From Gammaproteobacteria bacterium (GTDB taxonomy: Bacteria > Pseudomonadota > Gammaproteobacteria > SZUA-229), in the NCBI GenBank assembly GCA_015488885.1, contig WFMW01000068.1:1-46683 (forward strand): 46,683 bases of DNA, in the 5' to 3' direction. Shown here in pieces: positions 1 through 43,745 of the stretch (position 1 is its first letter; every line of letters begins with the position of its first letter). The notes below the pieces were generated by a model. It worked only from the letters and a program-made list of their open reading frames with translations. It did not search any database and was not told where the DNA came from. A program made the position numbers and the translations under genes.

Positions 1-150
1 AATAGGAGCCGTAGCGAGGGGAAGTGGATTTGAGGCATATTTTTCACTATTTTGAGGAGAATAGCACGGCTATTTAACGATAAATAGAGGAAAATATGAC
101 CAAATTCCACTTTTCCGCAGTAGGCTATCTATTCTCGGACAGGCTCCTAG
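1..150. repeat. Inverted-repeat (MITE-like) element, copy A, cut by the window edge
   Basis: This is an imperfect long hairpin. The left arm at 21-31 (GAAGTGGATTT) pairs with 102-114, and the A/T-rich arm near 36-53 pairs with about 83-98. The right end reads GGACAGGCTCCTAG. It is related throughout to the complete copy at 14759-14963, sharing the blocks GTAGCGAGGG, ATTTGAGGCA, CTATTTAACGA and CGCAGTAGG. The right arm continues about 18 bases beyond what the left arm can match, so the left end probably lies outside the window. It has no coding capacity. I infer a non-autonomous mobile or REP-like repeat. Confidence 0.75.
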
Positions 151-14418: not shown

Positions 14419-14787
14419 ATGCCTTTATTAACCATTTGTACCAATACTGATATTGACCATGCTGACACTTTCACACTGGAAGCCTCAGCATTTACAGCCA
14501 GTCTGCTGGCCAAACCGGAAAGTTATGTCATGGTTAAAATAGAAACCGCACGCACAATGAGTTTTGCCGGCAGTTTTAAAGCCGCTGCCCATTTACAACT
14601 GAAAAGTCTGGGGCTGGCCGAAACCGAGACTGAGCGCCTGTCCGCTGCCCTGTGTCAATTTATTGAAGACAGGCTGAGTATTCCTGCCGCCCGCATCTAT
14701 ATTGAATTTGCCAGTCCCGAACGCAGTATGTGGGGCTGGGATAATCACACATTTGGCCAGGAGTCTGTCGGACTTAACCAATCGTAG
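14419..14787 (+). CDS. MIF-like tautomerase family protein, C-terminus altered by a repeat element
   Basis: This 122-residue protein resembles macrophage migration inhibitory factor along its length. It has the catalytic Pro after the initiator Met (MPLLTICTNTDI), KPESYVMVKIE, MSFAGS, the helix AAALCQFIEDRLSIPAARIYIEF, and the terminal WGWDNHTFG, where MIF ends GWNNSTFA. Keto-enol tautomerase activity is expected; the natural substrate is unknown. AGGAGA lies seven to eight bases before the ATG. MIF normally ends just after STFA. Here about nine extra residues (QESVGLNQS) and the stop codon come from the inverted-repeat element that begins at 14759. Confidence 0.88.
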   Translation: MPLLTICTNTDIDHADTFTLEASAFTASLLAKPESYVMVKIETARTMSFAGSFKAAAHLQLKSLGLAETETERLSAALCQFIEDRLSIPAARIYIEFASPERSMWGWDNHTFGQESVGLNQS

Positions 14788-14963
14788 CGAGGGAAAGCCG
14801 ATTTGAGGCAGATTTTTCGTTATTTTGAGGCGAGTAGTGCTACATGGATGTAGCGGTTACGAACCTAAGGATGGAATAGTACGACTATTTAACGAAAAAT
14901 AACGGGAAACATGGCCAAATCCGGCTTTTACGCAGTAGGTTGTGTTAAGTCCGACAGACTCCT
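14759..14963. repeat. Inverted-repeat (MITE-like) element, copy B, complete
   Basis: This 205-base element is bounded by a perfect 20-bp inverted repeat: AGGAGTCTGTCGGACTTAAC at 14759-14778 and its complement at 14944-14963. The interior also folds on itself. 14794-14804 (AAAGCCGATTT) pairs with 14917-14928, and an A/T-rich arm near 14809-14826 pairs with about 14894-14911. A short apical hairpin, GCTACATGGATGTAGC, lies at 14839-14854. It has no coding capacity. It is homologous to the element at 1-150 but has about 40 extra apical bases. The left end lies inside the tautomerase gene. Confidence 0.85.
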
Positions 14964-15048
14964 AGTATGGAAACGCTATAAGTATGGCATAACATCTCGA
15001 ATAGGTTAAAATGCGCGCCACTTTACTGTTTTAGCGACGAACCGTTTC

Positions 15049-43250: not shown

Positions 43251-43745
43251 TTATGCTTTTTTAGCCTTACGTCGTTTTACTGGTTTAAGCGCTTTTTCAA
43301 TTTTAGCCATTTCGCTCTTCGTCCAGCTTGCGATAAAACGGGCAACCGCTATTTCCTTATTTGCTGCCATTTTAACCATAAGATCATGACGTTTCTTCGC
43401 GGTAGCAATTTCAGCTTTCGCTTTTGCCAGCTCAGCGGCCGTAGCAGCAACACGTTCACGCATTTTTTGTTTTAGCATAGCGGTAGCCGCTTTCTTCTTT
43501 GCTGCTGCTATTTTTTTCTTCGCGGCAAGCGCTTTATTTTTAGCGACAGCAGCTTTCTTTTTCGCAGCCGCTGCTTTTTTCGCTACAGCGGATTTAGCTA
43601 CTGATTTTTTTGCCGTCACTTTCTTCTTAACTTCTCTTTTTGCCGTTGTCTTTTTCTTAACGACTTTTTTTCTTACTGGAGCTTTCTTTTTAACTGCTCT
43701 GTTAGCAGTTATTTTTTTCTTTGTTACTTTTTTTGTTTGAGCCAT
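43251..43745 (-). CDS. Histone H1-like lysine/alanine-rich protein
   Basis: This 164-residue protein is very rich in Lys and Ala. Residues 1-60 carry repeated KKK(V/A) patterns such as VTKKK, VKKKA and VVKKKTTAK. Residues 55-90 are AAKKKAA-type repeats, as in eukaryotic H1 tails and bacterial AlgP or Hc1-like proteins. The C-terminal third (MRERVAATAAELAKAKAEIATAKKRHDL, then IEKALKPVKRRKAKKA) is helical and less repetitive. It is likely a nucleoid DNA-binding protein. AGGGGA lies seven bases before the ATG. A strong promoter candidate lies upstream and a terminator follows, so it is a single-gene unit. Confidence 0.85.
   Translation of the reverse strand: MAQTKKVTKKKITANRAVKKKAPVRKKVVKKKTTAKREVKKKVTAKKSVAKSAVAKKAAAAKKKAAVAKNKALAAKKKIAAAKKKAATAMLKQKMRERVAATAAELAKAKAEIATAKKRHDLMVKMAANKEIAVARFIASWTKSEMAKIEKALKPVKRRKAKKA

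Follow-up and report, generated by a model that had tools for sequence, protein, structure and literature searches.

A dispersed hairpin repeat of a gammaproteobacterium is very probably a non-autonomous transposon with IS1182-family ends and a fold-constrained interior

MITEs are usually viewed as decaying leftovers of IS elements, often confined to a single species. MITEPye1 of Paracoccus yeei, as presented in the accessible part of its report, is 159 bp long, lacks an ORF and has 18-bp terminal inverted repeats (TIRs) like those of the IS1182 family; it shows 4-bp direct repeats and a long stem-loop, and IS1182 transposases are its proposed mover (PMC11578231). The hairpin repeat analysed here agrees with it in length, TIR type and direct-repeat length, a likeness drawn from the description alone, so that this kind of element is already known and MITEPye1 may, by analogy, be a relative; it comes, however, from one alphaproteobacterial species with 1-3 copies, and that part of the report holds no covariation, strand or module analysis (PMC11578231). 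IS1182-family IS (NF033551; ISPsy36, ISPye18) share with the repeat the terminal sequence and the CTAG target; the tested members duplicate these 4 bp, as the repeat presumably does, and, unlike the repeat, IS1182-family IS encode a transposase. Correia/NEMIS and ERIC are also short palindromic MITEs that are widespread in one bacterial group, but their ends, targets and lengths differ from those of our repeat, and we know of no GGA modules in them. RNase III cleavage has been reported for Correia and altered transcript levels for ERIC (PMC10969869).

The hupL MITE of the sulfur bacterium Thiomargarita nelsonii is abundant, about 205 bp long and bears a 19-bp inverted repeat; it can be likened to ours by description only and differs in its 10-bp direct repeats and its proposed PD-(D/E)XK partner (PMC4853749). 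CsrA/RsmA-binding hairpins, characterized by RUACARGGAUGU and ANGGAN loops (PMC3791407), and the TwoAYGGAY RNA motif (PMC2864571) resemble modules of our repeat, which likewise bear GGA in an ANGGAN loop; unlike the known CsrA/RsmA binders, these CsrA-like hairpins sit at the apex of a transposon and are putative sites. A review of prokaryotic MITEs does not mention IS1182, CsrA or covariation (PMC10969869), and the letters of the repeat's motifs had no match in the open-access papers searched, an absence that is weak evidence. The RNA-like constraint and the GGA modules of the repeat appear to be new.

The window, that is, the whole stretch of 46,683 nucleotides that we analysed, corresponds to contig C68; the draft genome spans 2.63 Mb on 72 contigs. 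The window contains two copies of the repeat, A and B, which belong to one family (covariance model R1). An initial annotation had described them as hairpins that differ by paired changes, with a 20-bp TIR and an apical hairpin added in copy B. Both hairpins are real and fold, as DNA, far better than shuffles (z = -7.3 for A, -10.0 for B); so are the paired differences, GTGG/CCAC in A against GCCG/CGGC in B, and both the 20-bp TIR and the apical GCTACATGGATGTAGC hairpin are present in copy B. The features of the two copies and of the adjacent gene are as follows.

1..146, plus strand: copy A, basic form with the other TIR type; R1 125.9 bits, 5' truncated, left 13 nt absent
147..150, no strand: right target copy of A, CTAG, read from the sequence
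14419..14787, plus strand: ORF of a MIF-like gene directly 5' of copy B; PF01187, E 1.3e-17; the MIF profile stops at residue 112 of the 122-aa ORF
14757..14760, no strand: left target copy of B, CCAG, presumably a decayed CTAG
14759..14778, plus strand: left TIR of copy B including the last two target bases (AGGAGTCTGTCGGACTTAAC); IS1182 type, near the IS1182 ends CAGCCTGTCGGACTT of L198/L199
14761..14961, plus strand: copy B, long form of the hairpin MITE, 201 bp = 159 + 42; R1 151.8 bits, E 5e-35 on 14758-14964; fold z about -10
14783..14797, plus strand: core motif CGTAGCGAGGGAAAG, fixed and asymmetric, which forms the left-hand part of the internal loop; 42 elements show little or no variation in it
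14834..14875, plus strand: module M1 at the apex, 42 nt, whose hairpin GCTACATGGATGTAGC has GGA in its loop, plus a second GGA motif AAGGATGGA; 70.1 bits, E 6e-16 on model R2, whose training set includes copy B
14930..14938, plus strand: right side of the internal loop, ACGCAGTAG, in which CGCAGTAG is nearly invariant in 42 elements
14944..14963, minus strand: right TIR of copy B, taken from the sequence
14962..14965, no strand: right target copy of B, CTAG

Copy A lacks 13 nt at its left because the contig starts inside it; full A-type copies in contigs C57 and C25 show the missing left end, which starts with AGGAGCCTGTCCGAGAATAG. A-type copies elsewhere in the genome carry the terminal repeat too, and the TIR was thus wrongly regarded as an addition of copy B. 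The apical hairpin of B, though correctly recognized, is part of a 42-nt insertion (14834-14875) that is missing from the basic form. The MIF-like gene would originally have ended at a TAG stop at 14758-14760, within the target CTAG; a T-to-C change would have turned this stop into CAG, and the ORF now reaches 9 codons into copy B, to a conserved TAG of the element. Elsewhere in the window, an inverted repeat of 25 bp (88%) around a 16-nt loop, located at 1781-1846 at the end of ORF 321-1790, is possibly a terminator or another small repeat, and TTTCTTTTT-type repeats at 43251-43745 on the plus strand lie inside a small minus-strand ORF, for which they suggest a lysine-rich, histone H1-like product.

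BLAST with both copies located the repeat at about 20 places in the source genome, where R1 has 19 matches with both strands counted; the genome-wide check for a mere pair of copies therefore leaves the family standing. The basic element, GAG...CTC, measures 159 bp +/-1 almost everywhere and occupies the site CTAG. Among 57 full elements, the GGAG..CTCC span is 160-162 in 48 and typically 161 bp, C precedes the left dinucleotide in 51, G follows the right one in 47, and most copies have CTAG on both flanks; taking CTAG as the target leaves an element proper of 159 bp. The repeat thus has the attributes of a MITE, being small (159 bp in its basic form), devoid of a transposase gene and present at about 20 places. 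It had also been proposed to be REP-like, which does not agree with 159 bp, paired TIRs of 16-20 bp and DDE-type ends, as against the 20-40 bp of REP sequences.

Two TIR types occur, GAGCCTGTCCGAGAATAG in copies like A and GAGTCTGTCGGACTTAAC in copies like B. The A-type copies of the source genome look recent because they are mutually 99-100% identical, and this identity is probably also why the assembly broke at them: contigs C44, C50, C65 and C68 each begin or finish inside an A-type copy. Shrunken copies in the source genome (C12:4303-4373, C25:11060-11111, C31:48143-48170, C57:146547 and C63:13408) retain only the two TIRs or the outermost bases of these and resemble products of a deletion that removed the palindrome between its arms. 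In the copies of L125, L129 and L167, a CGCCATCCATGGCGG-type hairpin stands in place of the left TIR, directly 5' of CGTAGCGAG.

A search of 34 hairpin-carrying genomes revealed an IS in Marinobacterium profundum (L234:500-2251) that has CTAGGAGGCTGTCCGAGAATG at both ends, like the repeat, and encodes a complete IS1182 transposase (NF033551, 387 bits against a cut-off of 270). This IS lies directly against a copy of the hairpin repeat, at the right end of that copy, with a single CTAG common to both. An IS end from Methylobacter (L233) is identical to the A-type end of the repeat in 20 of 20 bases; the ends of both IS are CTAGGAGGCTGTCCGAGAAT, and in Marinobacterium profundum and Methylobacter a transposase with matching ends thus occurs in the same genome as the repeat. 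A plasmid copy of the repeat in Pseudomonas sp. MPC6 is followed by CTAGCAGCCTGTCGAACTT and transposase remains, a lead to complete IS1182 elements on Pseudomonas plasmids with CTAGCAGCCTGTCGGACTT ends (L198/L199; the L198 transposase is NF033551), and some hairpin copies, such as L099, begin with exactly CTAGCAGCCTGTCGGACTT. Filled and empty sites (pPUV-5 versus pTTS12, and pPAG5 versus pBM908) document two independent insertions in which one CTAG became CTAG-IS-CTAG, both by IS1182 elements with the end type other than CTAGGAGGCTGTCCGAGAATG; a search for an empty site of the hairpin repeat itself found none. The IS1182-type ends of the repeat, together with the CTAG duplication by IS1182 elements, mark it as very probably an IS1182-type MITE, and its ends at CTAG support the proposal of a non-autonomous mobile repeat.

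As judged from these ends, an IS1182 transposase would cut the hairpin element and insert it in trans at CTAG, thereby duplicating CTAG, and the two TIR types of the source genome would answer to two IS1182 lineages. The source genome itself has no PF13751 transposase match, and its partner IS may have been lost, left unassembled or diverged too far. Among relatives, 11 of the 24 bearing the repeat have a transposase, compared with 7.7 expected, which is a weak co-occurrence, and their PF13751 loci mostly have other ends, for example TTAGCAGCCTGTTGAAAAA. TIR pairs at IS distance, searched by pattern alone in the loci and relatives, yielded no autonomous element, and the 159-bp fold was not seen in the IS1182 ends examined. 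Insertion into TAG stop codons is in weak excess only: it accounts for 5/64, and the share among other CTAG sites is 2.2% (p = 0.02).

The interior of the element evolves under constraint to fold on one strand. In 42 elements from different loci, 96.2% of the cells of the 64 pairs are paired and 40 of these pairs have changed on both sides; none of 500 shuffles reached the observed values, and pairing fell to 33-52% in slid structures. On a tree of 98 elements, 185 pair-preserving double changes fall on 53 of the 64 pairs, as against 3-17 in slid controls, counts of events that are approximate because the tree was built from the same alignment. Since the structure had been drawn from the first alignment, the test was repeated on a held-out set, 25 elements of other classes that had not contributed to that alignment. 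The model was used to align them, and such an alignment is biased towards the model's structure; they were 93.0% paired, both partners had changed in 46 of the 64 pairs, and 0/500 shuffles reached this; their stems were rewritten, and GTAGCGA, GCAGTA, the tandem G.A and the apical ATAG...CTAT were kept. The pairs exceed chance, and the covariation, alongside fixed mismatches, supports the earlier suggestion of selection for a hairpin.

The long forms differ in what they carry at the apex. Each of the 7 insertions of at least 45 nt among the aligned elements falls at model position 85, which is the apical loop, and M1 recurs at the same point in two genomes of other genera (G029 and G045, two occurrences apiece), with a stem that covaries. 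A second module, M2, comprises three hairpins and occurs in other copies of the source genome and in L172; the layouts of L174, L269 and L270, also with three hairpins, are similar. When ten modules were folded alone, GGA lay in a hairpin loop in 9/10 on the plus strand and 0/10 on the other, the exception being the module of L168, which has no GGA loop; these modules are partly interrelated and hence not independent cases. For 6 modules, shuffles produced a GGA loop in <1% of cases.

The source genome encodes CsrA, and GCUACAUGGAUGUAGC is similar to RUACARGGAUGU, the motif obtained for CsrA by SELEX, and is compatible with an ANGGAN loop (PMC3791407). From this resemblance, the apical GGA loops would bind CsrA/RsmA, and we regard them tentatively as candidate sites, a role that is possible but on balance doubtful. 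Rfam gave no match in the window at the gathering score; a weak CsrC match below gathering at L069 316-370 (E 0.0012) adjoins that copy of the repeat and lies outside the element. M1 units, 42 nt with the GGA hairpin and AAGGATGGA, were also observed outside any MITE, singly or as tandem pairs (contigs C44 and C16), at the following positions.

L084, 434-517, 4090-4173 and 7377-7418: M1 units outside MITEs
L083, 457-498 and 2747-2788: M1 units outside MITEs

Paired changes on a hairpin can be read in more than one way, and the strand on which the element folds bears on the first of these readings. Of 49 informative columns, 42 hold more G.U than A.C cells (p = 3.6e-7), as do 32 of 39 in the held-out set (32 vs 7, p = 7e-5); as an A.C on the plus strand is a G.U on the other, the folded strand is the plus strand. 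The RNA of copy B reaches -95.9 kcal/mol on this strand and -78.4 kcal/mol on the other. The constraint would act on a transcript of the plus strand, and the inserted element would then be read as a long RNA hairpin. Selection might instead act on single-stranded DNA, with the hairpin serving as folded DNA in, for example, a strand-specific step of transposition or replication; the DNA fold (z about -10) speaks for this, as does the lack of bias in the orientation of neighbour genes (41 vs 32, p = 0.35), which also gives no support to a role within the mRNA of a single adjacent gene. The ends and the CTAG duplication are, however, those of a DDE transposase, an enzyme that works on double-stranded ends, and RNA is indicated by the strong tolerance of G.U together with GGA loops on that same folded strand. 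We therefore think selection as folded DNA unlikely.

Palindromes are prone to arm-to-arm correction, and template switching or gene conversion from one arm to the other could create paired changes without selection on the fold, as had been considered at the outset. The switch between TIR types, in which a whole block differs on both arms together, accords with such a process and may have been aided by it. Correction would, however, erase mismatched motifs, whereas the tandem G.A mismatches are fixed in 37/42 and 39/42 elements and the core CGTAGCGAG/CGCAGTAG is fixed across classes while the flanking stems change; nor does it predict the preference for G.U over A.C on one strand. The fixed mismatches and the strand bias are evidence against correction as the sole process, and we consider it improbable.

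Less probable still is dispersal without any constraint on the fold, in which paired changes would reflect symmetric transposase binding at the ends and different IS1182 partners. The match of the two TIR types to two IS1182 end types does explain the paired changes in the outer 20 bp, but the 38 inner pairs, interior to the TIRs, account for 122 of the 185 pair-preserving double changes and covary in the held-out set, and covariation beyond the outer 20 bp refutes dispersal as the whole explanation. The TA before and after GGAG...CTCC in most copies recalls MITEs of the IS630/Tc1 type, such as Nezha, RUP or Correia, that duplicate TA; we practically discount this identity, as IS with the same ends encode IS1182 transposases and the matching IS duplicate CTAG, not TA. 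A search for an IS630 partner found no PF13358 in the source genome. We thus hold it very probable that the hairpin repeat is a MITE with IS1182-family ends and a fold-constrained interior.

This MITE is widely distributed. R1 has matches in 24 of 116 relatives. Of 398 genomes sampled across the phylum, 53 carry the family, most of them outside the class, again with the fixed length. A scan with the core pattern returned at least 105 stretches, from genomes of many gammaproteobacteria; Sedimenticola, Thiodiazotropha, Methylobacter, Marinobacterium, Colwellia, Thiotrichaceae and others are among the matches listed, as are a few MAGs of other groups, in which contamination is possible. One copy, that of Pseudomonas sp. 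MPC6, is on a plasmid, and a phage collection contained no match to the repeat.

A single homologous MITE has here retained its length, its loop motifs and a fold with covarying stems in many genera and in more than one class, and it is clear which strand folds. The conserved fold and the clear strand make it directly testable whether a bacterial transposon persists through its RNA. In a wider reading, which we judge rather unlikely as a whole, the transposon would be a structured RNA whose transcript fold is selected across at least two bacterial classes, and its apical modules would plant predicted CsrA/RsmA-binding hairpins beside genes genome-wide. The GGA modules would then tie transposition to the CsrA network, and if this is true, transposition spreads post-transcriptional regulation, or a CsrA sponge.
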